A stretch of 64,000 bases of DNA, from NCBI GenBank assembly GCA_003762615.1, contig RIAZ01000017.1, positions 1 through 64,000 of the forward strand. Direction: 5' to 3'. A program made the position numbers and the translations under genes. Position 1 is the stretch's first letter; the number at the start of each line of letters is the position of its first letter. Shown in pieces: positions 11,557-43,074 of this stretch. Origin of the DNA: Muribaculaceae bacterium Isolate-037 (Harlan) (GTDB lineage: Bacteria > Bacteroidota > Bacteroidia > Bacteroidales > Muribaculaceae). The notes below the pieces were generated by a model that was given only the letters and a program-made list of their open reading frames with translations, did not search any database and had not been told where the DNA came from.

Positions 11557-12402
11557 ATGAAGGGGTATATAGGTAATATATTGCAGGAAATAGACATAGA
11601 GATTGACGAAATCGACCTCTACGGCTATGATATTATCGAAACCTCTCTTTCAATGGTACATAAGCTGCAAACGGTTCTTGATGATTTGAGAACTAAAATA
11701 CAAACCTATATATTTCCAACCAAAGAGGACGAAATCTTATTTTTCAAGACACAGAAACCGGAAATACTCGGTCGGTTGCTATTCTTCTATAAGATATACA
11801 AGATTGAAACACAATGCCCTAATGGTAGCGATGAAGTGATTAGGAATTATATCAATCGGGAACTGGATAATCTGACCTATTTCTTCAATCGCAATTTGGA
11901 CTTTTATCAATACTACCGTTCACACTCCACTGTGTACGATGAATACTACTTTGTACGTGGAAAAGCTGATTTGCGGTTATGTACCGATAGCGCTCAGTTT
12001 GATAAAGACCCTAATTTCTCAACCGGATATGACTATAAAGTGGCAAAGATTATCGCCAATGAAATGCTGCGCATTTATTTGAATAAGCGATTGGTGAAAC
12101 TGGTAACGAATAATCAGATAGAAGATAACCTACAAAGATGCTTCAAATATCCGTTCCGCTTCACAGGCAAAAAGTCATATCTTATCGAACTGGGATATTC
12201 TCTTGTATCTTCGGGCGACATAAACAATGGCAACGTGGAGATAAAAGAAATGATGAATTTCCTTAGTACAATATTCCACATGGATTTAGGGGATTATTAC
12301 GCTTCATATATAGCCATGAAAGAGAGAAAAGACCGGACGGCATATCTTCATCATCTGATAGAGAGCCTTGTTAAGCGGATGAATGAAGATGATATGAAAT
12401 AA
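11557..12402 (+). CDS. rteC: RteC-type regulator of conjugative transfer
   Basis: A 281-residue all-helical protein with the features of RteC (YYRSHSTVYDEYYFVRGKAD, FDKDPNFSTGYDYKVAKIIA). In CTnDOT, RteC activates the excision genes after tetracycline induction through RteA/RteB. Here no tetQ, rteA or rteB is visible, so excision control in this ICE must differ or be partial. It begins one base after the iron-sulfur gene stop and is followed by a strong terminator, so it closes the regulatory operon. Confidence 0.85.
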   Translation: MKGYIGNILQEIDIEIDEIDLYGYDIIETSLSMVHKLQTVLDDLRTKIQTYIFPTKEDEILFFKTQKPEILGRLLFFYKIYKIETQCPNGSDEVIRNYINRELDNLTYFFNRNLDFYQYYRSHSTVYDEYYFVRGKADLRLCTDSAQFDKDPNFSTGYDYKVAKIIANEMLRIYLNKRLVKLVTNNQIEDNLQRCFKYPFRFTGKKSYLIELGYSLVSSGDINNGNVEIKEMMNFLSTIFHMDLGDYYASYIAMKERKDRTAYLHHLIESLVKRMNEDDMK

Positions 12403-12619: not shown

Positions 12620-12979
12620 ATGGAGATTATAACATTTGAGTCAAAAGCCTATAAGGAACTTGATAACAAGATTACCGCCATAGCAGACTACATTTTCAAT
12701 CACTTGGACGAAAACAAGACTGATGAAGATGAAATTTGGGTGGATAGTTACGAAGTCTGCACGTTCCTGAAAATCAGTGACCGTACTTTACAACGCCTAC
12801 GGGCGGCAGGAATGATTTCTTACTCCGACATCAAGGGGCATTACTTTTACAAGATTAAGGAAGTAAAGCGAATGTTGGAAGAACGCCTGATTAAGCGTGA
12901 TAAGGAGTGTATAAATGAACTGATAACCAATCATCAGAAATATGTTAAGGAAAGAAGAAATTCTAAGCAGAACAAATAA
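12620..12979 (+). CDS. Helix-turn-helix protein (excisionase-like)
   Basis: A 119-residue DNA-binding protein with a MerR/excisionase-type winged helix in its second half (YEVCTFLKISDRTLQRLRAA, then DIKGHYFYKIKEVKRML). Proteins of this type in Bacteroides elements act as accessory DNA benders or regulators. A TAACTTTG box lies at 12589-12596, giving a leader of about 17 bases. Its 3' end overlaps the primase/helicase gene by 38 bases, so the two are translationally linked. Confidence 0.75.
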   Translation: MEIITFESKAYKELDNKITAIADYIFNHLDENKTDEDEIWVDSYEVCTFLKISDRTLQRLRAAGMISYSDIKGHYFYKIKEVKRMLEERLIKRDKECINELITNHQKYVKERRNSKQNK

Positions 12980-15000: not shown

Positions 15001-15279
15001 ATGTATATAGATAAAGAAAACTTCGTGGCTTGGATGGAGCGTATCATGGATAGGCTCGATATGCAGGACAAAAAGATAGACCGTCTGTTAAGCGGTCACA
15101 ATTACCTGAACGGCGAAAAACTCCTTGATAATCAGGATTTGTGCTTTATGCTGAAAGTGAGTACCAAAACCTTGCAACGTTACCGGAAGAAAGGAATACT
15201 GCCTTACTTAACATTAGACGGAAAATATTTCTATCGTGCAAGCGACATACACAAGTTAATCCGTGAACGCATGGATTAA
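15001..15279 (+). CDS. Helix-turn-helix protein
   Basis: A 92-residue protein with the same type of winged helix as the gene at 12620 (QDLCFMLKVSTKTLQRYRKK, then DGKYFYRASDIHKLI). It starts 12 bases after the repaired end of the primase/helicase frame, so it belongs to the same transcript. Role probably regulatory or as excision accessory factor; not provable here. Confidence 0.7.
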   Translation: MYIDKENFVAWMERIMDRLDMQDKKIDRLLSGHNYLNGEKLLDNQDLCFMLKVSTKTLQRYRKKGILPYLTLDGKYFYRASDIHKLIRERMD

Positions 15280-16293: not shown

Positions 16294-18381
16294 CTATTTC
16301 TTCGGTTTCGCTTTCTTTTCGGGGAATAAAAAACCGACATTGAACTGTTCGTCCAGCACAAGCGAAGCATCGAAAGCCTTGCCGTTCTTGCCCTTGAAGC
16401 CCTTGATTAGCCCGGTCTTGCGTTTTGTCACCAGTTCGACAATCTGCTTGTCGGTCAGTTGCTTGTCGCACTTGTTGCGGAATATGGTAAGCGTGCAGTC
16501 CACGTTGGAACACTTCGCCACTTTCGGGTAGAACAGGATGAGCCCGTTATTGCATTTGGGGCAGGGACAGGTTTCACCAGTAGCGACAGATAGCTGCACC
16601 GATAGCAGTTCTGCGGTGATTTGCGTTGCGTACACCTCGATACCCTTTCGGAACGTGTCGGCATCCATACTGCCCGCTTCTATCTTGGCAAGGGCGGTTT
16701 CCCACATACCCGTCATTTCGACATCGGCAATCTTCTTGTCCTTGACAATCCCATAAACGGCAAGCCCCTTGTCGGTAGGCACAAGGTTCTTCTTCTCACG
16801 CACGATGTACTGGCGGGTGAACAGCGTTTCGATAATCGCCGCACGGGTGGCTGGCGTGCCTATCCCGGCATCTTTCAGACTGGCTTTCAGTTCGGCATCT
16901 TCCAGTTCCTTTCCGGCGTTCTCCATTGCGGCAAGCAGGCTGCTTTCCGTGTGCAGCGGTTTCGGCTTGGTCTGCTTCTCCAACAGTTCCACGTTGGAAA
17001 TCGGCAGGCCTTCGCCCTCTTGGAGCGGCGGCAGACTGGCGTCTTCTTCATCCCCGCCCGTTTCCTGCTCGCCGAACACGGTACGCCAGCCTGCTACTTT
17101 CATCACAGACCCTTTTACCGTGAAGTCAGTATCTCCAGCTGACAATATGGCGATGGTAACGTCTTTCACGCACTTGCCCGAAAAGGCTTCCAGCATACGC
17201 CCGGCTACCAGCTCGTAAACCGCCCGCTCGTCTTTGGAAAGTTCGCCGGGCAGGTTCTCGGTAATGATTAAGGCGTGGTGGTCGGTCACTTTGCTATCGT
17301 TTACGCTGCGGCGGTTCAGTGCTGCACCGTCCAGCCCGGCGGCATACCCGGCAAAGCGGGGGTATTGCCCTAACAGGGCGACACGCTCCGGCATTTCATC
17401 GAAAACGTCCTCCGATATATAGCGGCTTCCGGTTCTCGGGTAGGACATCACTTTCTTTTCATACAGGCTTTGCGCTATGGAAAGCGTCTTGTCAGCCGAA
17501 AAGTTCAGCTTCGTGTTCGCTTCCTTTTGCAGCGTGGTAAGGTCGTACAGAAGCGGCGGTTCTTGGTTGGCTTCTTTCCTCTCAACGGATTTCACGGCAA
17601 GTTGTCCGGCATCCTTAACCCGTTGCAGGGCGGCTATGGCTTCGGGCTGCTGTTCCCACTTGGCGGTCGATTGGGCGGTGAAACTTATTTCCCCGCTGGT
17701 GGTCGCCGCTTTGAGTTGCCAAAATTTGGCGGGTACGAAATGCTTGTTCTCCAAATAGCGGCTGCATATCATCATGAGCGTGGGTGTCTGTACCCTGCCC
17801 AGCGAGAACACGCCCTGCCCGGCGGCTACGCTCAACGCTTGGGTGGCGTTTATCCCTATCAGCCAGTCCGCTTCGCTGCGGGACTTGGCAGAGAGGTAGA
17901 GGTTATCGTAACGCTCTCCCGGCTGCAAGTTATCCAGCCCCTCACGGATTGCCTTGTCGGTAAGGCTGCTTATCCACAGGCGCACAAATGGTTTTCGACA
18001 GTTCAGGTAATGGAAGATGTAGCGGAAGATTAACTCACCCTCACGCCCGGCATCGGTGGCGACAATAATCCGGTCGCACTTGTCGAACACTTCCTTTATC
18101 ACTTTCAACTGTTTCAGAACGCCGGGGTCTGCCTTGTAGCCTTTCTCCGCTTTCACCTGACGGGGGATTAATTGGAAATCGGGCGGCAGTATGGGCAGGC
18201 TCTCCTTGCGGAAGTTCGCCACGCCATAGGCTTCCGGCATGGCAAGCTGGATTAAGTGGCCGAACGCCCATGTCACCATATACCCGTTGCCGGAAAGATA
18301 ACCGTCATTACGCTGGGTCGCACCGATGATGCGGGCGATGTCCTTTGCCACGCTGGGCTTCTCTGCTATCAATGCAATCAT
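16294..18381 (-). CDS. topB: DNA topoisomerase III (type IA)
   Basis: A 695-residue type IA topoisomerase. The Toprim domain starts at residue 1 (MIALIAEKPSVAKDIARIIG) with DRIIVATDAGREGELIF near residue 105. The catalytic tyrosine lies in KKVMSYPRTGSRYIS near residue 310, and the C-terminal zinc-finger-like part has CPKC and CSNVDC. It relaxes or decatenates single-strand-linked DNA. TopB homologues are common in Bacteroidetes ICEs next to DUF3945 genes, probably helping handle transferred DNA. Transcribed with the upstream DUF3945 gene (25-base gap) and ended by the terminator at 16202. Confidence 0.93.
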   Translation of the reverse strand: MIALIAEKPSVAKDIARIIGATQRNDGYLSGNGYMVTWAFGHLIQLAMPEAYGVANFRKESLPILPPDFQLIPRQVKAEKGYKADPGVLKQLKVIKEVFDKCDRIIVATDAGREGELIFRYIFHYLNCRKPFVRLWISSLTDKAIREGLDNLQPGERYDNLYLSAKSRSEADWLIGINATQALSVAAGQGVFSLGRVQTPTLMMICSRYLENKHFVPAKFWQLKAATTSGEISFTAQSTAKWEQQPEAIAALQRVKDAGQLAVKSVERKEANQEPPLLYDLTTLQKEANTKLNFSADKTLSIAQSLYEKKVMSYPRTGSRYISEDVFDEMPERVALLGQYPRFAGYAAGLDGAALNRRSVNDSKVTDHHALIITENLPGELSKDERAVYELVAGRMLEAFSGKCVKDVTIAILSAGDTDFTVKGSVMKVAGWRTVFGEQETGGDEEDASLPPLQEGEGLPISNVELLEKQTKPKPLHTESSLLAAMENAGKELEDAELKASLKDAGIGTPATRAAIIETLFTRQYIVREKKNLVPTDKGLAVYGIVKDKKIADVEMTGMWETALAKIEAGSMDADTFRKGIEVYATQITAELLSVQLSVATGETCPCPKCNNGLILFYPKVAKCSNVDCTLTIFRNKCDKQLTDKQIVELVTKRKTGLIKGFKGKNGKAFDASLVLDEQFNVGFLFPEKKAKPKK

Positions 18382-18406: not shown

Positions 18407-19711
18407 CTACATTTTCATTCCTCTGGACTTCTTGGGTTTGTCCGCTTTCAGGCTCTTGTCCTGCTTCTCTTTCTGCTTGGCGGTGGGCTTGTCCTGACCC
18501 TGTTTCAACGGCTCTTTGCCCTGCTTGGTAGCTTCGTTGGTCTTGCCCTCCGAATTGACCGCTACCTGCGTCCGGCTCTCGGCGGCGGGGGTAACGTCTT
18601 TCGGCTGCACCTTGTCGGGGGATTTGCCCTGTGCGCCGGGCTGCACATGACCGTTGAACTCAACGCCCTTGCCGTCCTTTATCCCGGCTACCTGCTGTTC
18701 TGCGGGCTGCTGCCCCTGCTGCAAGAACTGGACGGCAGCACGGGGCAGGAACTCCAAGCCACGCTCCACCGCACTGACCTGCAAATAGGCACTGCGTTTC
18801 GTGCCGTCCCTGAATTGCAGGTTTTCCATTTTGACCGCTTGCCCGGCTTCAAAGGCGGCTTTCTGCTCCGGGCTGACTTTCACGCCGCAAATGGTGTCGG
18901 GGCATTTCCACTTGTCAGCCCGCATATACTCCAGTTCGTGCGTGTACCTGTCCCGGCTGACGAACACGGGGATTTGCCCGCCGCTTTTCGGGTCTTTGAT
19001 TTCAGCGATGCCGCCCAAGTTGCCAGTGCCTTGCAAGTTACCCTGTTCCTGCTTGGTGAACCCGTGTTCATGGAACGGGCGTTGCAACAGTTTTTCGTCC
19101 TGCTGCACGCCGTGCAGCTTGGGTACTACCGTGCCGTCCTTTGCCTGATAGAAAGAGAGCTTGACATCGGTAGGTTTGAGGTAGAAGCCGCCCACCGTCC
19201 CCGAAACGGTGTAGGTGTTGCGGGACTTGTAGCCACGCATCACCCGGTCGAAGTCTTTCGTGTTTTTCAGGGTATTGGCGGTGATGCCGACTTTTTTCAG
19301 GTTCTCCCAGTCGATTTTTGACGGGTCGAAGCGGTAGCCCTGCTTGAACTCGTGGAAGTCGGGCTTCGGAACTCGTAACATTTCAGCCCGCTTGCCGCCC
19401 TCCGGTGTCGGGTTGCGGTGGTTGTCCTCGATTGCCTTTGCGTCCTGCTCCGCTTCGGAAGCCTTGACGCTGAACAGTTCCAGCCCGGAAGTGTCCTGGA
19501 ACTTGCGGAAGAAATTGGAAATGAAGTTGCTGAACACATCGCTGTTCTTGTCCACCTGCATGAACTCGCCGCCCTGTGTCGGCGGCACAGTCTGCAAATT
19601 GCCCTCCTTGTCGATACCCTTAACGGCACTCACCTTGCCCTGCTGTTTATCCAAGACCAGCAGCACGTCTTTTTCCTGCCCCTCTGCGGGCGGGGTCATT
19701 CTGTTTGCCAT
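18407..19711 (-). CDS. DUF3945 protein
   Basis: A 434-residue protein with DUF3945-type repeats (DFDRVMRGYKSRNTYTVSGT, FVSRDRYTHELEYMRAD, and ICGVKVSPEQKAAFEAGQAV). The C-terminal 120 residues are low-complexity, rich in Gln, Lys and Pro, and end in a basic tail (KADKPKKSRGMKM), as in nucleic-acid-binding partners. Function unknown; the fixed link with topB in Bacteroidetes elements suggests a partner of topoisomerase III. The start follows a copy of the AACCACTAAAATTTCAA leader motif. Confidence 0.8.
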   Translation of the reverse strand: MANRMTPPAEGQEKDVLLVLDKQQGKVSAVKGIDKEGNLQTVPPTQGGEFMQVDKNSDVFSNFISNFFRKFQDTSGLELFSVKASEAEQDAKAIEDNHRNPTPEGGKRAEMLRVPKPDFHEFKQGYRFDPSKIDWENLKKVGITANTLKNTKDFDRVMRGYKSRNTYTVSGTVGGFYLKPTDVKLSFYQAKDGTVVPKLHGVQQDEKLLQRPFHEHGFTKQEQGNLQGTGNLGGIAEIKDPKSGGQIPVFVSRDRYTHELEYMRADKWKCPDTICGVKVSPEQKAAFEAGQAVKMENLQFRDGTKRSAYLQVSAVERGLEFLPRAAVQFLQQGQQPAEQQVAGIKDGKGVEFNGHVQPGAQGKSPDKVQPKDVTPAAESRTQVAVNSEGKTNEATKQGKEPLKQGQDKPTAKQKEKQDKSLKADKPKKSRGMKM

Positions 19712-19792
19712 AAATAATTGAAATTTTAGTGGTTACGGGAATAGTCCCGCCCAAAGGTAGCGACTAAATATGCTATATTTGGACGGGCGGCA

Positions 19793-19832
19793 AGGGCTGT
19801 CCGCATTTGTCCTGCGCTGTCCCGATTTGTCC
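19793..19832 (-). repeat. Four 10-bp GGACA direct repeats (locus 1)
   Basis: Read on the minus strand, four units begin with GGACA at exact 10-base steps (unit ends at 19832, 19822, 19812, 19802); the first three units end AATCG, GCGCA and AATGC. The same series occurs at 26191-26230 and 27836-27875. The 10-base phase places each GGACA on the same face of the helix. Located between the divergent DUF3945 and AbiE genes. Confidence 0.7.
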
Positions 19833-19902
19833 GTGGCAGATGAAAATATCCAACCAACAGTTGGAGAAATAAAAACATCTTCGGCAAAATATTTGTTATG
19901 TT

Positions 19903-19934
19903 TTTGTATGTAATTACATAATATACTATCTTTG
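19903..19934 (+). promoter_or_regulatory. AbiE promoter with internal palindrome
   Basis: TTTG (19903-19906) and TATCTTTG (19927-19934) are spaced exactly 20 bases. Between them lies the perfect palindrome TATGTAATTACATA (19907-19920). AbiEi antitoxins are known to bind inverted repeats in their own promoter, so this is the likely operator. Confidence 0.7.
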
Positions 19935-19958
19935 CAGATAGAAACAAAGTACATAAAT

Positions 19959-20660
19959 ATGGCTTCATTCAGGAAAGAGATACTTGGGCAGATTGAACGG
20001 ATAGATACCGGGCGTATATTCACGTTCCGGGATTTGTCGTTTGAAATGGAAAAGACCGCCAATGTTGCGGTGCTGCTCTCCGAACAGAGCCGCAAAGGGG
20101 TACTGGTACGGGTTGAAAAAGGGGCGTACTACCGCCCCAAGAAATCGGTCTTAGGATTGGGGAAGCTGCCCGTCTATCAGGATGAACAGTTTCGTTATCT
20201 TACCGAAAAACTGAACGGCTATATCACGGGGGCTTACGTCTATAATAAAATGGGGCTGACCGAACAGGTCGCCACAACCATAACGATAGCCACTCCAAAC
20301 CCGGTTCGCCGTTTCCGTTTCAAGAACTTGGATATAGAGTGCGTGAAAGCCTACTGCATGGACTATCCGGATGAAAGCCTTGTCCCGTACTTGCGGCTGC
20401 TCGATGCGATAAAGGACATGAAGCGCATACCCGGAACAACCGGACAGGACATCTACAACCGGGTCAAAAGCCAATATTTCAACGGGTACAGCCTGCCGGA
20501 ACTGGAAAAAATCGTATCTTTGGCAAAAAGTTACCCGCCACGTGTCAGAAAGGTGGTGGCAGACATACTGGGCGACATCAGACAAACCGTATTGCAAACG
20601 GAAATGGCAAAGACCATTCTTCCCACGACACGGTTCAACTTGGATTATAAAACGGCATAG
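19959..20660 (+). CDS. AbiEi-like antitoxin (DUF6088 type)
   Basis: A 233-residue protein with an N-terminal winged helix (ILGQIERIDTGRIFTFRDLS, RKGVLVRVEKGAYYRPKKSV) followed by the AbiEi antitoxin region (LNGYITGAYVYNKMGLTEQV, TITIATPN). In type IV toxin-antitoxin systems AbiEi represses its promoter and counters AbiEii without binding it. The longer frame from 19932 would start inside the -7 box, so the ATG at 19959 is used. The toxin gene starts 9 bases downstream. Confidence 0.8.
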   Translation: MASFRKEILGQIERIDTGRIFTFRDLSFEMEKTANVAVLLSEQSRKGVLVRVEKGAYYRPKKSVLGLGKLPVYQDEQFRYLTEKLNGYITGAYVYNKMGLTEQVATTITIATPNPVRRFRFKNLDIECVKAYCMDYPDESLVPYLRLLDAIKDMKRIPGTTGQDIYNRVKSQYFNGYSLPELEKIVSLAKSYPPRVRKVVADILGDIRQTVLQTEMAKTILPTTRFNLDYKTA

Positions 20661-20669
20661 GACAGAAAT

Positions 20670-21680
20670 ATGAATTTACATTCGGACAAGGAAGCGTTCA
20701 AGGAAATCATCGCACTGGCGGCTGAACATTTCGGCTACGAGCAGTCGCACGTGGAAAAGGATTACTGGGTATCGAAGATACTGCGGGATATTTCCATGTC
20801 CGAATATGCGGATAAGACCTACTTCAAAGGCGGAACTTCACTTTCCAAAGCCTACGGGCTGATAGAACGCTTCTCGGAAGATTTGGACTTGTTCGTGTTC
20901 ACGGGAGATAAAGGTGCGTCCAAGCAGGCGGAAAAGACATTAAACAAGAAACTTTCCAAATACATAGCCGAACTCAACAGTGACATATACAAGGAAGATT
21001 TGTCGGAAACGGGCGGTAATTACCGCAAACTGTATTTTTCTTATGACAATATATTTCAGGGTGTGGGACTGAAAGAACATTTGGAAGTAGAAATAAAGTC
21101 TTGTGACCTACCGGACAAAAAACTAATGTTCTACCCGGCAGACAAGCGGGTTATCAAACCGATTGTGACCGCCTTTCTTGAAAGTATCGGGCAAGAGGAA
21201 CTGATAAGCACCTACGGGCTGGAAAGTTTTGAAACGCAGTGTATCAATCCCCGAAAGACTATCTGCGACAAGGTTTCAAGGCTGGTAAAGCTGTCTTACA
21301 ATGAGGATGCAACCGCACTATTGGCAAAGCATATCCGTGATGTTTACGACTTGTCGGCACTCTACCACAATCAGGAATATAACGATTACCTACATTCGGA
21401 AGATTTCTTGGATGCCATGTACCGGGTGACGATAGAGGACGGGCTAAACAAAAACTCCCGTTCGCACTTGTCGCTGGCTGATGCACCGATATTCAAGGAT
21501 GCCGAAGCGGTCATGGCGTTACCCGAAGTGGCTACGGCGTACATTACCGATTTGAAGAAACTGACCTTTGACAAAAGCAAGATGCCGCCGATAGGCAAGG
21601 CTGTGGAAGCATTGGAGAACCTACACGAAATACTGGTGCGCTTTGAAGCCTACCGAATAAAGCAACAAAACAAAGAATAG
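20670..21680 (+). CDS. AbiEii/AbiGii-type nucleotidyltransferase toxin
   Basis: A 336-residue nucleotidyltransferase. The signature is intact: YFKGGTSLSKAYGLIERFSE with EDLDLFVF (G-G-S and D-x-D) near residues 50-75, and a second conserved block HLEVEIKSCDLPDKK. AbiEii toxins transfer nucleotides to RNA substrates, such as tRNA in studied homologues, and cause abortive infection. The pair with the upstream antitoxin forms a type IV system carried as ICE cargo, protecting the host from phage and favouring ICE retention. Confidence 0.88.
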   Translation: MNLHSDKEAFKEIIALAAEHFGYEQSHVEKDYWVSKILRDISMSEYADKTYFKGGTSLSKAYGLIERFSEDLDLFVFTGDKGASKQAEKTLNKKLSKYIAELNSDIYKEDLSETGGNYRKLYFSYDNIFQGVGLKEHLEVEIKSCDLPDKKLMFYPADKRVIKPIVTAFLESIGQEELISTYGLESFETQCINPRKTICDKVSRLVKLSYNEDATALLAKHIRDVYDLSALYHNQEYNDYLHSEDFLDAMYRVTIEDGLNKNSRSHLSLADAPIFKDAEAVMALPEVATAYITDLKKLTFDKSKMPPIGKAVEALENLHEILVRFEAYRIKQQNKE

Positions 21681-21710
21681 CTGTTAATTAAAAATAGAAG
21701 AAGCAATTAT

Positions 21711-22199
21711 ATGATTTTCAGAGAAATAAGAGAACGGTTAACTGGTATAAGTTGCCCCATTTTTGGTGTATCTTGGAATCCGTCTGAAACAGAACGTACA
21801 AAAGCAATTAAAATTATACGTTTTTTAGAAGACAGAAGAGTATTATATAATCCTTATGAACAAGAATGTCCTGACCATTGTATTCATTCAATAATTGAAA
21901 TCAGACATTTTCTAACAGATAAGATACAAGATATATCATCAGAAACCAATCTTTATAATTACTTAAAAGCAATGCGTATTGCATGTAGGAAGTTCTTAAA
22001 TCAATATACTAACGAGAATAATAAGGTGCATTTTTATTTGCACAATTATGATTGTATAAGTAGCTGGAAATTTAATTCTACATTAGGCGAATTAAGAGGT
22101 ACATTTGGTATAATGTTGGCGCAAATGGCTGTGGCTTATGGGATAGATATTGAAGATGAATTATCCTCAATATTGCCTGAAAAAGATAGCGAGGAATAA
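21711..22199 (+). CDS. DUF6650-like protein
   Basis: A 162-residue protein, AT-rich compared with its neighbours. The start FREIRERLTGISCPIFGVSW with WNPSE resembles what I remember of DUF6650 proteins, which are often found with defence or element cargo genes; function unknown. No signal peptide or membrane segment. It lies 30 bases after the AbiEii gene in the same direction and ends just before the convergent mobC gene, so it may be a third gene of the defence cargo. Confidence 0.5.
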   Translation: MIFREIRERLTGISCPIFGVSWNPSETERTKAIKIIRFLEDRRVLYNPYEQECPDHCIHSIIEIRHFLTDKIQDISSETNLYNYLKAMRIACRKFLNQYTNENNKVHFYLHNYDCISSWKFNSTLGELRGTFGIMLAQMAVAYGIDIEDELSSILPEKDSEE

Positions 22200-22212
22200 T
22201 GTTCCTCGCCGT

Positions 22213-24222
22213 TTATTCTTCCTTTTTTATCAAGTGGCATAACTCCGGGTCGTTCTTAATCCGTGTTATCTCGTCCTCGACAATCTGCCGGACTTCCTGA
22301 CGGATGCGGTCATAATTGGCTTGTATCTCCTCCTGCATCCGGTCATTGCCGTCCTTGTCGGTGAAGTCGATAATCTGCGGCAACTTCACGTAACGGGCGG
22401 TTTCCCGCTTTACCTTTTCATTATCCACCACGATTTCACAGTGGAAAATCTTCTGCTCTATCCGTTCATCGAAGTTGTCCGCCACAGCCCCCACGAACAT
22501 ACCTTGCGTGAGGTTGGATATTTTGCTGGCGGGTATCAGGCTGTCCATTTGGGTACTTATCGAGGTGGACTTCTCCCGCTGGTTGATTGTCATGCTCTGC
22601 CGTTTCTGCAACACCTTTCCGAAACGCTCCGACAGTATTTTTGCCGTTTCACCGACTACCTGACCGCTAAACACGTTGCCCACAGTATTTTGTATCACAC
22701 GGCTTTCCTTGTCCCCATAGTCACGGGTAAGCTGGCTGTAATCCTGAAAGCCCAGCAGAACCGCAACCTTGTTGCTTCGGGCGGTCGCAATCAAATTATC
22801 AAGCCCACGAAAATATATAGTCGGTAATTCATCTATTATCACCGAACTTTTAAGCTGACCTTTCTTGTTTATCAGCTTCACTATTCTACTGTTATATAAT
22901 CCCAGTGCCGCCGAATAGATGTTCTGACGGTCGGGATTGTTGCCGACAACCAAGATTTTAGGCTCTTTCGGGTTGTTGATGTCCAGCGAGAAATCATCAC
23001 CTGTCATTACCCAGTAAAGAGCGGGTGAAATCATCCTTGAAAGCGGGATTTTCGCACTTGCTATTTGACCCTGCAACTGCTATTGAGCGTCTGATTCCCA
23101 AGCATCTACGAACGGCGAAAGGTAGTTTTCCAGTTCGGGATAACTGCGCAAAATAGTGAATACATCGGCGTATTTCTTGTTCAACAGTTCAATGGCATGG
23201 GGGAACGTGCAATACTTACCGCCTTGATAGATACGGAGATACCAAATTATAGCCGCCAAAAGAATAATCGGGATTTCCACGAAGAAATCGCCCTGCTTGC
23301 TTATCCAACTTCGATTGAGGTTAAGCATTATCGTGTAGCTGGCTTCGTAGGCATCCGCAATGTCCGACATGAAGCTGGCGTTTATCGGGTTGCATCGGTG
23401 GCTCTTGCGTGGGTCGTCAAAATTGATAATGTAGAATTTAGGCTTTACCTTATACCCGTCCAAGTGGTTAAGCAAATGATTATAAGCGATTTCCGATAAA
23501 TCGGGAAACTTGTAATCATAACAGTAAAGCGCAAAACCTTTCTCGATTTGCTGTTTTATGTAGCTGTTTACCACTGCATACGACTTGCCGCTACCCGGTG
23601 TACCCAACACAAGGCTGGCACGGAACGGGTTCACGACATTTATCCAACCGTTATTCCATTTCTTCTTATAGTAGAACCGGGTAGGCAGATTTACCGAATA
23701 CTCGTTCTCGATAAGCCTTGTTTCCTGCTGGAAACTTTCGTTCTCTGTATTAAAGACATCATCCATTAGGTTGTTCTTCAACAGCCGGGACATCCATGTA
23801 CCCGCCATGAGCATACAGATATAGCCCGCCGACAGCGTGGCGATATAAAACACAGTGTCCGCCGTGTGTGGCAGCGGAAGTTCCAGCAGCCACCAGTTCA
23901 GAAAAAACAACACGACACCTGCCGCAAGGCTGCAATGTATCTTCGCCCACGTTATCTTTTCCTCTTTCACGCCCTTAGTGCCGATACACGACAGGGCGAG
24001 GAACAGCACCGAAAATAGTTTTGTCCAAAGAACGGACGAGAACAGCCCGGTGGTGCACTGAAAGTTCCACAGTATCTTGTCTATCACTTCAAAGGTCACT
24101 CCCCACTCTTTCAGGGTGGAGTAACAGAACCAGTACACGTTTATTCCCACGAATAGAATACTGACAGCCCGCATAAAGTCCATGACCCTTGCAAGCCCTC
24201 TCAAATCATCTTCCTGTTGCAT
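22213..24222 (-). pseudogene. mobC: Conjugative coupling protein (VirD4/TraG type) split by an in-frame amber codon
   Basis: Both halves read in one frame. The 5' half (380 residues) has several membrane segments (about 15-140) and Walker A LGTPGSGKSYAVVNS near residue 210. The 3' half has Walker B-like IIDELPTIYFRGLDNLIATA and a long C-terminal ATPase part. They are separated by one TAG at 23080-23082, right after WESDAQ and before QLQGQIASAKIPL. Relatives as I recall them carry Glu here (EQL.GQIASAK), so one GAG-to-TAG change explains it. An intact product (about 669 residues) would bring the relaxase-DNA complex to the transfer channel. It is third in the minus-strand mob operon. Confidence 0.8.
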
Positions 24223-24242
24223 GATTGTAATGTTTTTTTAAG

Positions 24243-25511
24243 TTAGTCGATGCGCCTTGTGCGCTTCTTTTTCTTCTTTCTCTTTTGGCGGGCGGTGTCC
24301 TGCGGATCGTCACCGCCTGATGCACCGCCGCCCAGCAATCCACCGAACGCACCCAACACGGAAGCCACACCCGGAACGATGTCGGATTTCGGCATGAACC
24401 CCGGTTGTTCCTGATGCGTGGGCTGGTCTTGCTGCGGTGCTGACACTTCGGGCTGGTGCATCTTTCCGGTTTCGCCCGAAAAACGTTCGTTGAACACGTT
24501 CGCCGAATACTCCTTGCCCAAGCGTGAACCGTTCAGCACCACCCGGCTGTCATGGTCGATGAACGTAACGCCATAGATGCGCCCGCTGTCATTCTGACGG
24601 AATACCACGTCAATGCCCTGCTTCTTTAGCTGTTGTTCCAGTTCCTTGCGGCTGCGGGTGGTCTGCATGGCAGTGGCTACAATCTTCCGGGTGCGCTCTT
24701 TCAGTTTCCCGTTCCTGATTGCTTCGCCCGATTTCTCCATTCTGCGCTGCACCGCTTCATAACCCACCGACTTGCCGATGCGGGAAGCCTTTACCGGGTT
24801 GCCCGCCTTTTCGCCCTTGTCGTTCATGGCGGAATAGACAATGCCCTGATAGGGCTTGCCGTTCACTTCACCCTTGACTTCCTCGGCGCACACGTTGTAA
24901 GCGGCAAGCAAAGCCTTGTACTCCCCGAACGACTGGAAGCGGTAGCCATAGCAAGCCGCTTTCACGGTATTGCCGATTTGGTGCTTCACGTCCCCGGCGG
25001 CATAGTCCACCTTTTTAAGTTCCGGGCGTTCGGCACGTTCCTTTCGCTCTGCCGGGTGCAGCCCGTATTTCTTTTCCAGTTCACGGGTGATTTGCTTGCT
25101 GCGCCGATGCTCGAACTTGTCATTCAGCGGCTTGCCGTTCTCGTCCACCCGCAACCCCACGATGTGGATGTGGTGGCGGTCGATGTCGGTATGCTTGTAC
25201 ACCAAATAGGGCTGGTCGCCATAGCCCAACTTCCGCATATACTCTTTGGCAATGTCGGAAAGCTGCAGGTCGGTCAGCACGTCTTCCGGGTGCGGGTTTA
25301 TGGAAATATGAAGTATCGGCTTCTTGGTGGATAGCTGGACGGGCATCTGCATTTCAAAGCTGCGCATACACTCGCCGATAGAGAAATTCCCGTCCTCGCT
25401 CAACAGCATCCGGTTGGAGAAAAGCACCTTTGCTTCCCCGCTGTCCACCTTGTTTTGGTTGTACGCCAGTGCGCCGAACATATTGCCGCCCGTGCTTATT
25501 TTGGCAACCAT
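24243..25511 (-). CDS. mobB: Relaxase/mobilisation nuclease
   Basis: A 422-residue relaxase of the MobP-like class (PF03432). The N-terminus (MVAKISTGGNMFGALAYNQN) is typical, and the metal-binding histidine motif HTDIDRHHIHIVGLRVD is intact near residues 125-141. The C-terminus is a Gln/Pro linker and a very basic tail (RQKRKKKKKRTRRID). It nicks oriT and pilots the strand. A TTG at 25523 would add four residues; ATG at 25511 is preferred. It overlaps the upstream accessory gene by 16 bases. In the CTnDOT naming this is MobB. Confidence 0.85.
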   Translation of the reverse strand: MVAKISTGGNMFGALAYNQNKVDSGEAKVLFSNRMLLSEDGNFSIGECMRSFEMQMPVQLSTKKPILHISINPHPEDVLTDLQLSDIAKEYMRKLGYGDQPYLVYKHTDIDRHHIHIVGLRVDENGKPLNDKFEHRRSKQITRELEKKYGLHPAERKERAERPELKKVDYAAGDVKHQIGNTVKAACYGYRFQSFGEYKALLAAYNVCAEEVKGEVNGKPYQGIVYSAMNDKGEKAGNPVKASRIGKSVGYEAVQRRMEKSGEAIRNGKLKERTRKIVATAMQTTRSRKELEQQLKKQGIDVVFRQNDSGRIYGVTFIDHDSRVVLNGSRLGKEYSANVFNERFSGETGKMHQPEVSAPQQDQPTHQEQPGFMPKSDIVPGVASVLGAFGGLLGGGASGGDDPQDTARQKRKKKKKRTRRID

Positions 25512-25918
25512 AGTTCCTTGCACTCGTTTGTCAGGTCGATAACCTGACGGTTCAACACAGCCAGTTCGGTGGTCGCTTTCTCCAGTTTATAGAGAAAAGC
25601 CAGTGCCTTTTTCTCCGAAAAGTTACTATTCAGAGCCTTTACCACTTGGTTGTAATTGACCGCTACCGCTCTGAATTGGGCATAAAATTCGGTCAGCCGG
25701 GCGCAATATTCTACTGCCGATTTGTCCACTTTCACCACCCGGAACGGCTCGCCGAACAACCGTGCGGCGATGAACCGGGACTTGCTCGTAACGCCCGACT
25801 GCTCCCACTGCGAGAGGAAGCGGGCATTCTCCCGGTCGTTCAGGTAAAGGACATGGCGGTGCTTCGCCGGGTCTGCGAGGGCGGGGCGACCGCCCTTGTT
25901 AGGTTTTCTTGTTTCCAT
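25496..25918 (-). CDS. mobA: Relaxosome accessory protein (MobC-family, PF05713-like)
   Basis: A 140-residue DNA-binding accessory protein: basic start (RKPNKGGRPALADPAKHRHV), a ribbon-helix-helix-like part (LNDRENARFLSQWEQSGVTS) and a helical C-terminus (NYNQVVKALNSNFSEKKALA). It helps the relaxase open oriT. First gene of the minus-strand mob operon, divergent from the tra operon, with the candidate oriT directly upstream. In the CTnDOT naming it corresponds to MobA. Confidence 0.75.
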   Translation of the reverse strand: METRKPNKGGRPALADPAKHRHVLYLNDRENARFLSQWEQSGVTSKSRFIAARLFGEPFRVVKVDKSAVEYCARLTEFYAQFRAVAVNYNQVVKALNSNFSEKKALAFLYKLEKATTELAVLNRQVIDLTNECKELWLPK

Positions 25919-25960
25919 GCTTCTTTGGATTAAAAAATTACGACTTCGGAGTGATATTTA

Positions 25961-26132
25961 CCCCCGCAAGGGGCAAAGCGTTTTCAGGCACGGAAAACGG
26001 TTTTGTAGCATACAAAACACACCTTGCTATTTTCTGACGAAAATCGAAATCCGTCACGGACGGATTGGGGTTAGCGTGAAGCGGTAAGCCCTGCCGTTCA
26101 CCAGCCCTGTTTTACACCTGCGCCCCTTGCGG
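25961..26132 (+). other. Candidate origin of transfer
   Basis: CCGCAAGGGGC (25964-25974) and its exact inverse GCCCCTTGCGG (26122-26132) bracket a segment with a tight inverted repeat AATCCGT-CACGG-ACGGATT (26048-26066), followed by GGGGTTAG. Position between divergent mob and tra operons and the nested inverted repeats fit an oriT. The exact nic site cannot be read from sequence alone. The whole gap 25919-26479 carries no gene. Confidence 0.5.
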
Positions 26133-26190
26133 TTCGTTACTCCGCTGCAAAGTAACGGTGATTTATAATGCTGTAAAATAGGTGGTTGGT

Positions 26191-26230
26191 GGACAAAACG
26201 GGACAGCGCAGGACAAATCGGGACAAGGTT
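26191..26230 (+). repeat. Four 10-bp GGACA direct repeats (locus 2)
   Basis: Units start at 26191, 26201, 26211 and 26221, each GGACA plus five bases (AAACG, GCGCA, AATCG, AGGTT). The two middle units match those at 19793-19832 and 27836-27875. Located between the oriT candidate and traA. Confidence 0.75.
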
Positions 26231-26263
26231 TTCAGGGGACGTTTTTTCTCCCTTTTTTTGCAT

Positions 26264-26454
26264 CGGATTTCAAGATTGAAAGCAAGATTGAAAGAAATAT
26301 TCCAATCAGGAAAGAATGATTGAAAGCAGGATTTCAAGAAAACATGATTGCAGGATTTCAATATTTCAAGAAAGAATGAAAGCAGGAAAACAAGATTGAA
26401 ATAAAACAATCTTTCAATATTTCAAGATTGCAATATGGAATGAATGATTGAAAG
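26264..26454 (+). repeat. Degenerate GATTGAAAG / TTTCAA repeat cluster
   Basis: GATTGAAAG occurs at 26274, 26286, 26318 and 26446, with near copies at 26346, 26376 and 26394, and inverse TTTCAAT/TTTCAAG elements between them. Spacing is irregular. It lies directly upstream of the ParA-like traA gene, so partition-site-like or operator function is plausible. Confidence 0.6.
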
Positions 26455-26479
26455 CAATAAATAAATCTATCAACCAATA

Positions 26480-27262
26480 ATGAACGAAAGCAATATGGAA
26501 AACGAGAAAACACCCCTTTATGTCGCCTTTTCCACCCAAAAGGGCGGGGTCGGCAAAACCACCTTTACCGTGCTGGCGGCGAGTTACCTCTACTACCTCA
26601 AAGGCTACGATGTGGCGGTGGTCGATTGCGACTACCCCCAACACTCCATTGCCGGGATGCGAAAGCGGGATGCCGAGCAGGTCGGGGCGGATGAAGATTA
26701 CAAGCGCATGGCGTATGAACAGTTCACCCGGCTGGGGAAGAAAGCCTACCCGGTGCTGTGCAGTTCGCCCGAAAAGGCGATTGCAACGGCTGACGAATAT
26801 ATAGCCGCCGGACACGTGCCGGATATTGTCTTTTTCGACCTGCCCGGCACGGTGAACAGCGAGGGCGTGATAAACTCCCTTGCGGGCATGGACTACATTT
26901 TCACCCCCATTTCAGCCGACAAGGTGGTGCTGGAAAGCAGCCTGTCGTTCGCAATGGCTATCCAAAAGCTATTGGTGAAGAATGAAGCCTGCCGACTTGC
27001 CGGGCTGTACCTCTTTTGGAACATGGTGGACGGGCGGGAGAAAACAGACCTCTACGCCGCCTACGACAAGACGATTAAGGAACTGGAACTGCCACTGATG
27101 AAAACCTTTATCCCCGATACCAAACGCTACAAAAAGGAACTGGTAGCGGATAAAAAGGCGGTGTTCCGCTCCACGCTCTTTCCCGCCAGCCGCCCGCTGG
27201 TAAGGGGAAGCAACTTGGAAGAACTGATAACCGAAATAACGTACTACATCAAATTACAATGA
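26480..27262 (+). CDS. traA: ParA-like ATPase TraA
   Basis: A 260-residue Walker-type ATPase: deviant Walker A FSTQKGGVGKTTFTV at residue 18, VVDCDYPQHS (Walker A'), DIVFFDLPGTVN (Walker B). First gene of the tra operon in CTnDOT-like elements. Its role may be DNA or complex positioning, or regulation. The repeat cluster at 26264-26454 directly upstream recalls the site-plus-ATPase layout of partition systems. traB follows after one base. Confidence 0.85.
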   Translation: MNESNMENEKTPLYVAFSTQKGGVGKTTFTVLAASYLYYLKGYDVAVVDCDYPQHSIAGMRKRDAEQVGADEDYKRMAYEQFTRLGKKAYPVLCSSPEKAIATADEYIAAGHVPDIVFFDLPGTVNSEGVINSLAGMDYIFTPISADKVVLESSLSFAMAIQKLLVKNEACRLAGLYLFWNMVDGREKTDLYAAYDKTIKELELPLMKTFIPDTKRYKKELVADKKAVFRSTLFPASRPLVRGSNLEELITEITYYIKLQ

Positions 27263-27263
27263 T

Positions 27264-27665
27264 ATGGCAAAGCAAAGCGGCGGGATGCCGAAGATAGACG
27301 AGGATTTCATGAAAGAACTTATCTCGCAAGGTGTCCCCAGTAAACAAGATAATAATAAGACGAATGATGTCCCGCAAGAAATACAAACAGAAACGGTGCA
27401 AGTAGAGAAACCGACACCCCGCAAGCGCAAGGGCGGTTCGGGCGACTACCGGGAAACCTACTTTCAGAAAGTGGAACTGGCAGACCGACAGCCCTTGTAC
27501 GTGAGCCGTACCACGCACGAGAAGCTGATGCGTATCGTGACGGTGATAGGCGGGCGAAAGGTAACGGTAAGCAGCTATGTGGAAAACATTCTGCTGCGCC
27601 ACTTCGAGCAATACCAAGACGAGATAAACACCCTGTACGAAAGTAATTTTCAAAAGCCTGTCTGA
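27264..27665 (+). CDS. traB: DUF3408 protein TraB
   Basis: A 133-residue protein. The N-terminal half is charged and disordered; the C-terminal half (YFQKVELADRQPLYVSRTTH, VIGGRKVTVSSYVENILLRH) is the DUF3408 ribbon-helix-helix-like domain. ParB-like or regulator role next to the ParA-type TraA is inferred. It ends two bases before traD. Confidence 0.8.
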   Translation: MAKQSGGMPKIDEDFMKELISQGVPSKQDNNKTNDVPQEIQTETVQVEKPTPRKRKGGSGDYRETYFQKVELADRQPLYVSRTTHEKLMRIVTVIGGRKVTVSSYVENILLRHFEQYQDEINTLYESNFQKPV

Positions 27666-27667
27666 CT

Positions 27668-28297
27668 ATGGTAATCTATTGCATACTTACCGGGCTTTTG
27701 GTGTACTATATCGCCTTATGGCTGTGGTATCGCTACACGGACAGTCGGACATCACCGGGCAGAACGGATGATGCGTCGCTTCCACGAAACGAAGTTTCAG
27801 GCTACACGCTGATAGGTGAAAGCCGATACAAGGGTGGACTAATCGGGACAGCGCAGGACAAATCGGGACACCTCCCGCAAGCGGCTGAAAATGATACTAT
27901 TTTTGCGCCGCAGGCTGACGGACTGCCGGAAGAAACGCCCGGTTACGAGAATGACGAACCCGACTACGAGGACGAGGAAATAGCCGGGTACATGGACGGT
28001 GACGATGATACCGGGCGGGCTACGGGCGTGAGCTTTGACGAACTGGGCGAAGCGGTACGCACGGCGAACGCCGACAACCCCACCGAAGCGGAACAGCGGC
28101 AAGCCGCCGGGACGCTGGCAAGCATTGAGGGGACGAACCTCTACGATGCGGTGGTGGAGAACATCAACGGCGGGCTGGCAAAGGTGGCGGAACTGCTGGG
28201 ACGCAACGAAGCGGAACTGGCTACGGCTGCCGTCCCTGCCGAAGCTGGCGGTACAAGCAAGGAACATGAAGCGTTCGACATGAACGATTTCCTATAA
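27668..28297 (+). CDS. traD: Transfer protein TraD
   Basis: A 209-residue protein with one N-terminal membrane segment (MVIYCILTGLLVYYIALWLW) and a long acidic, Ala-rich cytoplasmic or periplasmic tail (EDEEIAGYMDGDDDTGR; EAEQRQAAGTLASIEGTN). Function unknown; the position after traA/traB matches TraD of CTnDOT-like elements. The GGACA repeat locus 27836-27875 lies inside this coding sequence, in the linker after the membrane segment, which is unusual for a regulatory site. Confidence 0.65.
   Translation: MVIYCILTGLLVYYIALWLWYRYTDSRTSPGRTDDASLPRNEVSGYTLIGESRYKGGLIGTAQDKSGHLPQAAENDTIFAPQADGLPEETPGYENDEPDYEDEEIAGYMDGDDDTGRATGVSFDELGEAVRTANADNPTEAEQRQAAGTLASIEGTNLYDAVVENINGGLAKVAELLGRNEAELATAAVPAEAGGTSKEHEAFDMNDFL
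27836..27875 (+). repeat. Four 10-bp GGACA direct repeats (locus 3, inside traD)
   Basis: Units start at 27836 (GGACT), 27846, 27856 and 27866. The middle units (GGACAGCGCA, GGACAAATCG) are identical to those of locus 2. Confidence 0.7.
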
Positions 28298-41566: not shown

Positions 41567-42802
41567 TTACATGGCGACTTCCTTGTAAATTTTCTCGATG
41601 CCGACAAACTTCTTGTCAAGCCCCTGCATATCGCTGCCTATCTTGCTGTTAGTGATGCGGGCGTAAATTTGTGTCGTTTCGATATTGGTGTGTCCCAGCA
41701 TCTTGGAAACCGTTTCAATGGGTACGCCCTTTGATAGTGTGGTAGTCGTTGCGAACGTGTGCCGGGCAAGGTGGAATGTCAGGTTCTTTTTAATTCCGCA
41801 TACATCGGCAATCTCTTTCAAGTAGGCATTTAGCTTCTGATTGCTGATTATGGGAAGTATCTTGCCATTCGGTAACTTGCCCTTGTACTTCTTCAAAATC
41901 ATCTTGGGAATATCCAACAGGGGAACATTAACGTCCGTATTCGTCTTTTGCCGCTTTGTCATTATCCAAAGGTTGCCGTCAAAGGATTTGCGGATATTAT
42001 CTTGCGTAAGCCCGGCTACATCTATATAGGCAAGCCCGGTGAAGCAGGCAAAGATGAACAAGTCCCTGACGTGTTCCAGCCGTTCGGAAACCATTTTCTT
42101 TTTAAGGATGATTGTTATCTCGTCCTCTGTCAGATAACCTCTGTCCACTTTTTCCAGCCGGATTTTATAATTGGCGAACGGGTCGTTCACCAGTATGCCA
42201 TTGTTGCGGGCAATGATGATAATGCGCTTGAAGAACTGCATGAACTTGGCGGTGGTGTTGTAACCGCACTTGCAAGCGGTACGCAAGTATAACTCAAAAT
42301 CGGTAATGAACATCGGGGTAATCTCCTTAATGGATATGTCCGATACGTTGTACTTGCTTTGAATGAACTCGGCAAGGTGGCGGCGGGTGACTTCATACTT
42401 ACGGTAGGTCGCTATCGTCTTGGATATGCCGACCAACTGCTTTACATCGTCATTGTGCTTTTGGAACAGGGTAAGGATTGTTTCGTGGCTCTCACTATGA
42501 CCTAAAAACTCGTTCTTCACTTTCTCAGCGGTCACGTAGTTGTCACGCCGCTGCATTTCGTGATAAATGGTATTCAGTGATGCGTTTATATCATCCAGCA
42601 TACGGTTTATGCGGCTGGCTTCCGAAGTACGTCCAGTAGCCTTGCCCATTTTGCCGTCCCAAATAGAGGGCAGCACGTCCAGCTTGGTGTTAAAACGGCT
42701 CGCCACGCCGTCCACTGTGATACGGGCGAAAAGGGGGTACGCACCGTTGGCTTTCTGCTTGTCTTTCTTTGCGTAAAAGCAAATGTTGAATGTCGATTTC
42801 AT
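41567..42802 (-). CDS. int: Tyrosine recombinase (integrase) of the ICE
   Basis: A 411-residue integrase: N-terminal arm-binding domain (FNICFYAKKDKQKANGAYPL, FARITVDGVASRF), SAM-like core-binding domain (about 105-210) and catalytic domain with Arg in TGLAYIDVAGL region, HLARHTFATT (H-x-x-R), LGHTNIETTQIYA (His and the nucleophile Tyr). The arginine position carries AYIDV where TGLRYSD is usual, so Arg I may be absent or shifted; this deserves an alignment. It stands at the right end of the ICE about 270 bases from the attachment core. Confidence 0.88.
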   Translation of the reverse strand: MKSTFNICFYAKKDKQKANGAYPLFARITVDGVASRFNTKLDVLPSIWDGKMGKATGRTSEASRINRMLDDINASLNTIYHEMQRRDNYVTAEKVKNEFLGHSESHETILTLFQKHNDDVKQLVGISKTIATYRKYEVTRRHLAEFIQSKYNVSDISIKEITPMFITDFELYLRTACKCGYNTTAKFMQFFKRIIIIARNNGILVNDPFANYKIRLEKVDRGYLTEDEITIILKKKMVSERLEHVRDLFIFACFTGLAYIDVAGLTQDNIRKSFDGNLWIMTKRQKTNTDVNVPLLDIPKMILKKYKGKLPNGKILPIISNQKLNAYLKEIADVCGIKKNLTFHLARHTFATTTTLSKGVPIETVSKMLGHTNIETTQIYARITNSKIGSDMQGLDKKFVGIEKIYKEVAM

Positions 42803-42928
42803 AACTCACTTTTTAAGTTGCAAAACTATTGTAATTCTCTAAAAATGAGTTCTATGCAGGCAAGCCAAATAGCGACAGGACTTCGCCAATTTCGGACAAT
42901 CTGTACCCCCTTTCCGTTTTTGTTTGTC

Positions 42929-43039: not shown

Positions 43040-43074
43040 GTCTGCTTACTGTCCGGTATTGTCCGGTTAGTTCA

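Follow-up and report, generated by a model that had tools for sequence, protein, structure and literature searches.

What is served by short series of repeats spaced at one helical turn within a conjugative element is the question raised by a 64,000-nucleotide stretch of contig RIAZ01000017.1 from Muribaculaceae bacterium Isolate-037 (Harlan), hereafter called the window, which carries an integrative and conjugative element (ICE) resembling CTnDOT. A preliminary description of this DNA had noted three loci with four GGACA units each, repeated at exactly 10 bases, and had proposed a protein binding cooperatively along one face of the helix, either a master regulator or a relaxosome or partition factor. 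Our results suggest that these series are probably operators of a transcription regulon that would extend over the whole of such CTnDOT-like ICEs and would be driven by an activator. The arrays, the fixed distances at which they stand from -7 promoter boxes, and their conservation in related elements are direct observations.

Phased arrays and the promoters beside them

The window holds four arrays (sites 1 to 4), the last of them new in this analysis:

26191 to 26230, plus strand: site 1, four GGACA units at spacing 10,10,10, in the mob-tra intergenic region
27836 to 27875, plus strand: site 2, GGACT/GGACA/GGACA/GGACA, inside traD
19793 to 19832, minus strand: site 3, four GGACA units, upstream of the DUF4099/DUF3945 gene and the topoisomerase III gene
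42863 to 42898, plus strand: site 4, AGCCA/CGACA/CGCCA/GGACA at spacing 10,11,10, a mixed core, upstream of the integrase gene

The three series of the preliminary description lie exactly where it had placed them, and two of them (19793-19832 and 26191-26230) do consist of four GGACA units, whereas the first unit inside traD is GGACT; the fourth array, of like kind, had been missed. GGACA-N5-GGACA pairs occur nine times in the window where 0.09 would be expected, and the highest count in 100 dinucleotide shuffles was 1. Eight of these nine pairs fall within sites 1 to 3; the ninth is a lone pair at 43050-43064 (minus strand), about 150 bp outward of the integrase-side array (42821-42898 when counted with its promoter box). 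Three exact GGACA-N5 units in series were found only at sites 1 to 3 in the whole assembly (4,900,582 bases in 102 contigs, 97.9% complete), where the reversed pattern, taken as a control, had no match. When the rule is widened to four units of G-[A/C]-C-A (GMCA), 10 or 11 bp apart, the window holds four clusters scoring at least 15/16; 100 shuffles averaged 0.11 such clusters and never gave more than 1, and the reversed window had none.

Each array stands at a set distance from a putative -7 box:

26148 to 26155, minus strand: -7 box of the mob promoter, TTACTTTG, offset 35 from site 1, read towards MobC_2 and the relaxase
27898 to 27905, plus strand: -7 box inside traD, TATTTTTG, offset 27 from site 2, read towards traE and the type IV secretion system (T4SS) genes
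19752 to 19759, minus strand: -7 box of the DUF4099-topB promoter, TACCTTTG, offset 38 from site 3
42821 to 42828, minus strand: -7 box of the integrase promoter, TAGTTTTG, offset 34 from site 4, read towards the integrase

The -7 consensus of Bacteroides promoters (sigma-ABfr) is TAnnTTTG (PMC7366714). Three of the four boxes match it exactly and the fourth, that of mob, reads TTACTTTG in the clade of the window and exact TAnnTTTG in other clades. All four window promoters lack a -33 TTTG in the stretch that separates the array from its -7 box, and a fixed spacing in the absence of this element fits promoters whose activator must be aligned along a single helical face, like AcaCD at the xis promoter of SGI1. 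Across families, the offset is 35 at site 1 (mob) and 38 at site 3, where the box is TAnnTTTA in some; at site 2 it is 27 towards traE, or 37 or 25 in some families. Over 1.74 Mb (the window and related loci), the downstream offsets peak at 27 (48 times) and 38 (30 times) and the upstream offsets at 35 (66 times), the remaining frequent values (17, 28, 37; 24, 25) coming mostly from the same arrays read one unit shifted. Together with the persistence of the arrays in divergent elements, these fixed distances agree with the earlier proposal of one protein that binds along one helical face and regulates several loci.

The second site was correctly located inside traD, but it is better termed a putative intragenic promoter read towards traE, and the conservation of its box shows in the choice of codons. 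In 62 distinct traD genes (kept from 69 TraD after merging identical sequences, and related rather than independent samples), the Phe codon within the box is TTT in 59, while the other Phe codons are 231 TTT and 168 TTC. The box takes its first T from the third base of a codon that has T there in 62/62, whichever of seven residues (T, S, H, V, D, G or N) it specifies. The column of the box was set through the protein alignment, independently of the box itself.

Conservation in related elements

Related loci were obtained by scanning genome contigs with an alignment of TraA, and the best 80 of 252 were kept (TraA 57-100% identical). A locus was counted when an array of at least 14/16 was accompanied by its box, namely T[A/T]nnTTTG at 34-35 for site 1, TAnnTTTG at 27 or 37 for site 2 and TAnnTTT[G/A] at 38 for site 3, distances that were picked after the data had been seen. 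With 2, 10 and 40 loci not assessable for the three sites, array and box were recovered at site 1 in 71/79, at site 2 in 52/71 and at site 3 in 33/41 assessable loci, with 3 further loci having the array of site 3 without the specified box; these counts cover the 80 related loci and the window, which are related by descent and so not independent, a reservation that belongs with those gathered further below. Ten shuffles per region under the same rules gave 0/790, 0/710 and 0/410. When TraA is at least 63% identical, site 2 is present in 49/49 assessable loci. The series is therefore present in related ICEs and, as an exact three-unit GGACA array, found nowhere else in the host's own assembly; absence from the former or random presence in the host chromosome had been named beforehand as what would speak against the idea.

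Among 95 distinct arrays of sites 1 to 3 (380 units), the four positions of the core are G in 362, A or C in 368, C in 379 and A in 355, counts that are biased upward because the arrays were selected by the 14/16 threshold and the presence of a box. Their spacing is 10,10,10 in 81, and 14 have one or more steps of 11. The period of exactly 10 bases and, but for one GGACT, the GGACA unit hold for sites 1 to 3 of the window, whereas relatives keep GMCA at 10 or 11 bp. A fixed GGACA core was rejected as too narrow, since GMCA with 10/11 bp recovered many distant loci at the site upstream of traA.

The three-unit match was found in 15/393 genomes of the order, and in four of them (G000, G258, G059 and G166) it lies within the same ICE backbone as in the window. 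Among the matches listed, close relatives have arrays at all three sites of the window, and relatives with 79% TraA identity keep them upstream of traA and in traD, with TraD just 33-37% identical; arrays with mixed cores are present at site 3 of these relatives. In distant loci, the unit alternates between GGACA, AGACA and AGCCA at corresponding places. A search for any 5-base core with at least 3 different letters (30 representative loci, 25 block shuffles) gave, for the 17 loci whose TraA identity is 63% or more, 31-40/40 at a period of 10, against a shuffle maximum of 29-32, the weakest being L082 (31 vs shuffle 30) and L079 (33 vs 32). None of the 13 loci at about 60% or less exceeded the shuffled range at that period.

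Two observations concern other copies of this backbone. An extra array of 16/16 lies upstream of the coupling-protein gene at 2410-2460 of locus L350 (genome G230), with a box at 42 bp, which suggests extra operators in other ICE families. A second module of TraA and DUF3408, with two tandem DUF3408 genes, is present in G000 (G000:C4 111038-112522), and no GMCA array with a box was found within 1.5 kb of it at the tested threshold.

For the integrase-side site, a search of 295 genomes matched Int in 47 of them with E no higher than 1e-100, and 30 Int loci were compared. An array of at least 14/16 with a box at 34 or 35 precedes int in 11/30 (Int 53-100% identical). Four of the genomes with int arrays (G122, G205, G270 and G088) have no DUF3408, TraA or TraG match and may hold remnants or incomplete elements; in G122, the array reaches 15/16 or more at one of three Int loci only. 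The use of G122 as a clean TraB-free case was rejected, as a fragment with RteC, HTH_17 and DUF4099 and the ends of contigs suggest a broken-up or incomplete ICE. The integrase-side array of the window may lie near the attachment site of the element, whose ends were not found: a search for direct repeats gave only a 14-base match, taken as chance.

A like arrangement is found in some integrative and mobilizable elements (IMEs), among them the one that holds the three-unit match of genome G105. In this IME, an array stands directly upstream of a pair of HTH_17 xis genes, with TATATTTG 28 bp on, and array and box at 28 precede the xis pair in 4/30 loci with a homologue of its Xis (L220-L222 and L237). 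One further locus of the 30 has an array about 400 bp upstream, with a box at 35 in the opposite orientation. A scan of viral contigs with the IME Xis gave one relative, with an array and a box at 29 elsewhere in the locus (1957, minus strand) and no array scored directly upstream of its xis.

The predicted regulon and its alternatives

The element is assigned to the CTnDOT-like ICEs on the basis of RteC and TraE-TraQ type transfer genes with a relaxase and a coupling protein (matches to RteC, TraQ, relaxase, MobC_2, TraG-D_C and YWFCY). It further carries two HTH_17 genes, a topoisomerase, DUF4099/DUF3945, an AbiE pair, the mob operon, TraA/TraB, ArdA, ORF6N and an integrase, along with matches to DUF4134, the TraG P-loop, TraJ, TraM and DUF4138. 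The genes that matter here are:

11557 to 12402, plus strand: RteC (PF09357, E=1.7e-76)
12620 to 12979, plus strand: HTH_17 protein (Xis1-like), candidate activator
15001 to 15279, plus strand: HTH_17 protein (Xis2-like), candidate activator
16294 to 18381, minus strand: topoisomerase (PF01131), taken to be type III by its likeness to CTnDOT Exc
18407 to 19711, minus strand: DUF4099/DUF3945 protein
24243 to 25523, minus strand: relaxase (PF03432)
25496 to 25918, minus strand: MobC_2, first gene of the mob operon (PF19514, E=1.4e-55)
26480 to 27262, plus strand: TraA, ParA-like ATPase (CbiA and related Pfam matches)
27264 to 27665, plus strand: TraB (DUF3408; PF11888), candidate binder with a possible ribbon-helix-helix C-terminal domain according to a model and fold comparison
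27668 to 28297, plus strand: protein in the position of TraD, holding site 2, no Pfam family
41567 to 42802, minus strand: tyrosine recombinase, the integrase (PF00589)

The coupling-protein gene of the window is split (minus strand, 22213-24222) into two open reading frames (ORFs) at 22213-23076 and 23080-24222; that of G166 and G230 is a single ORF of about 670 amino acids. Just past the ICE integrase lies a second one (43227-44564), and 43227-64000 resembles another element, mobile or phage-like in character.

In the regulon that we propose, the four GMCA units would lie on a single helical face about 40-85 bp upstream of the expected transcription start, the arrays beginning 27-38 bp upstream of the -7 box of promoters without a -33 TTTG. 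A small DNA-binding protein, bound in a row along the array, would recruit RNA polymerase to the promoters of mob, of DUF4099-topoisomerase, of int, and to the intragenic promoter that leads from traD to traE and the T4SS. The order of induction would run from RteC to Xis (12620-12979 and/or 15001-15279) and then to mob, tra, topoisomerase and int together. The region upstream of the window's own xis (before 12620-12979) contains TAACTTTG and no array, which would place the array regulon downstream of Xis. The earlier idea of a master regulator gains from the fact that arrays precede genes of four groups (mob, topoisomerase, tra and int). As the primary role, action in the relaxosome or in partition is not supported: site 1 keeps its spacing to the mob promoter, and no box at a fixed spacing was found in the direction of traA.

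As to which protein would bind, we give an HTH_17 protein about an even chance and TraB a distinctly lower one, the rest falling elsewhere. A ribbon-helix-helix TraB is less likely than an HTH_17 activator of excisionase type, expressed under RteC. The two HTH_17 proteins, putative excisionases, adjoin RteC, and the same order is kept in L352 and L346; S53, T56, Q58 and R61 of the helix-turn-helix are common to all 12 aligned HTH_17 proteins of ICEs and IMEs. This neighbourhood, the xis arrangement of IMEs and the conserved residues favour an HTH_17 binder, as does the action of CTnDOT excisionases as transcription factors, described in PMC9956884.

The strongest alternative, although rather unlikely, is that TraB binds the arrays and forms with TraA a ParABS-type system like delta/omega of pSM19035, in which promoters are overlapped by the parS repeats, the sites being both centromere-like and regulatory; such a role of TraA/TraB could also coexist with the operators. 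The ParA-like TraA (CbiA) is indeed encoded adjacent to the DUF3408 protein, whose C-terminal domain is modelled with confidence (residues 61-130, block pLDDT 86-97). The best structural matches of this domain, presumably ribbon-helix-helix proteins, have low Z, and a search of PDB sequences with TraB gave a single match (E=0.28). Nevertheless, the segment expected to contact DNA differs by clade (RQPLYVSR, KTVYIRK, RQMTTITR and RQGVYID, in an alignment with identical TraB sequences merged and L033 left out for a masked stretch) while the GMCA core stays constant, and the monomer model has no strand there. Among 24 TraA loci, 14 have an array and 2 a weak one, and all 8 without an array in 1.5 kb flanks still carry a DUF3408 gene within 1.5 kb. 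The int arrays of G122, G205, G270 and G088, possibly remnants, stand in genomes without a DUF3408 match, and the array-bearing IME stretches contain no TraB-like gene, their sole match (L250:10631-11029) falling outside the IME; all four genomes with the IME xis array have DUF3408 genes elsewhere. Finally, the set distance runs to the mob promoter, not to traA. Drift of the core as a sign of a coevolving TraB was dropped, because the int site holds GGACA and GCCA units in one element, and the core is read as one degenerate motif.

It is improbable that the arrays are bound by a regulator encoded by the Bacteroidales host, or by a family common to host and elements, even though phased GGACA arrays do occur beyond ICEs. 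They lie near genes that we take to be DUF6266-like (L009, L015 and L023), and in G257 arrays of this kind are accompanied, at 36, by a box in the orientation of site 1, one base off the ICE value. In G211, a series of phased GGACA/TGACA arrays (L163 17139-17690) has TAnnTTTG boxes at 19, 29 and 39, with no ICE gene recognised near the run; neither G211 nor G257 has a DUF3408 match. A five-unit phased GGACA array lies in a phage-like region of G186 (L164 9718-9790), with no -7 box at ICE distances. Against a host regulator, the window's own assembly has exact three-unit GGACA arrays in the ICE only, and the arrays scanned in the ten match genomes other than G000, G258, G059, G166 and G105 (that is, G008, G012, G069, G124, G186, G211, G221, G257, G270 and G332) have no box at exactly 27, 28, 34, 35, 37 or 38. 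The arrays of these ten genomes were set aside, a relation being possible given G257 and G211. In G008, G012 and G270 they consist mostly of simple tandem repeats, and G332, G069 and G124 each have a single three-unit match, no more than the reversed control gives.

Still less credible is that the mob-side array belongs to the origin of transfer (oriT) or relaxosome, as an accessory or coupling-protein site, with the other arrays as decoys or secondary sites. Site 1 does lie between mob and tra, on the upstream side of MobC_2 and the relaxase, but 3/4 sites are away from mob, and the promoter geometry is common to all four; no nick site was located in that intergenic region. Chance or a by-product of TraD peptide repeats is a negligible explanation in whose favour nothing was found, the former being refuted by the shuffle controls at the thresholds given and the latter by the intergenic position of site 1 and by the traD units, which sit in differing reading frames (10 bp not being divisible by 3) and so form no peptide repeat.

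Several points weigh against an activator-driven regulon read by an HTH_17 protein and must be considered cautiously. The proposal does not account for the start of the tra operon itself: traA does have an array on its upstream side, but the 31 loci listed gave no -7 box at a fixed distance in its direction. Activation rather than repression is inferred from position only, and binding is likewise deduced. In the most divergent set (TraA 57-61%), site 1 is kept in 22/27, site 2 in only 3/22 and site 3 in 0/4. Of the Int loci, 19/30 lack such an array, one at 55% identity and all 18 others at 50% or less, and 26/30 xis loci lack the xis arrangement, 25 of them without any array with a box at these distances. 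The recognition-helix motif of HTH_17 is, we presume, common to much of the family, so its constancy is weak evidence. Xis2d of CTnDOT reportedly binds a dyad and not direct repeats, and Xis2c, Xis2d and Exc are said to regulate mob. In addition, TraB may have a DNA-binding fold, as modelled, and adjoins two arrays. The box at 36 in G257 may mean that the architecture is not peculiar to these elements, and the promoter design may be used beyond them by a related or host protein.

Relation to known systems and meaning

The type of element is shared with CTnDOT, as RteC, the topoisomerase, the relaxase and TraE-TraQ type genes are present here. In the literature on CTnDOT, DUF3408, ParA and ICE activators, searched at the level of titles and abstract openings, no such four-unit operator was found, and part of this may already be known; in contrast to what is described there for the CTnDOT excision proteins (Xis2c/Xis2d/Exc), nothing was encountered on the four-unit operator, its fixed promoter distance, the promoter internal to traD, the int site or the IME copies. 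Some phage excisionases, 186 Apl and L5 Xis among them, offer a possible likeness: they are small, attach to direct repeats in helical phase and can also act at promoters. The sites described here lie at promoters.

Another parallel is AcaCD of IncC plasmids and SGI1 (SetCD of SXT), where one activator serves the transfer promoters and the island has an activator-dependent xis promoter using the activator of its helper; at SGI1 xis, the contact area spans about 40 bp and lies 31 bp before the start (PMC4605294). In contrast, AcaCD is an FlhDC-family protein with a different site, and int of SGI1 is constitutive whereas int here has an array. The delta/omega (ParAB) system of pSM19035 with its parS sites likewise pairs a ParA with a ribbon-helix-helix partner, here a candidate only, and has tandem repeats at several promoters, at least four repeats being needed (PMC9499535). 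Its repeats are 7 bp and contiguous, unlike the 4-bp cores spaced by 10/11 bp found here, for which no set distance to a traA promoter was found.

A wider proposal, possible but held tentatively, is that one operator grammar, made of four GMCA units at 10/11 bp with a fixed -7 distance, would be common to ICEs and IMEs across Bacteroidales, that the excisionase-type activator of the ICE would also switch on the excision of resident IMEs, and that the conserved promoter buried in traD would allow induction of the secretion system independently of traA-traB. If true, this would be a Bacteroidota counterpart of AcaCD/SGI1, made of unrelated parts. Among gut Bacteroidales, genes that include resistance genes are spread by CTnDOT-like ICEs and by the IMEs that these mobilize. 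A readable operator would make the induction regulon predictable from sequence, pinpoint the key promoters, and render the control of IMEs by helper ICEs testable.

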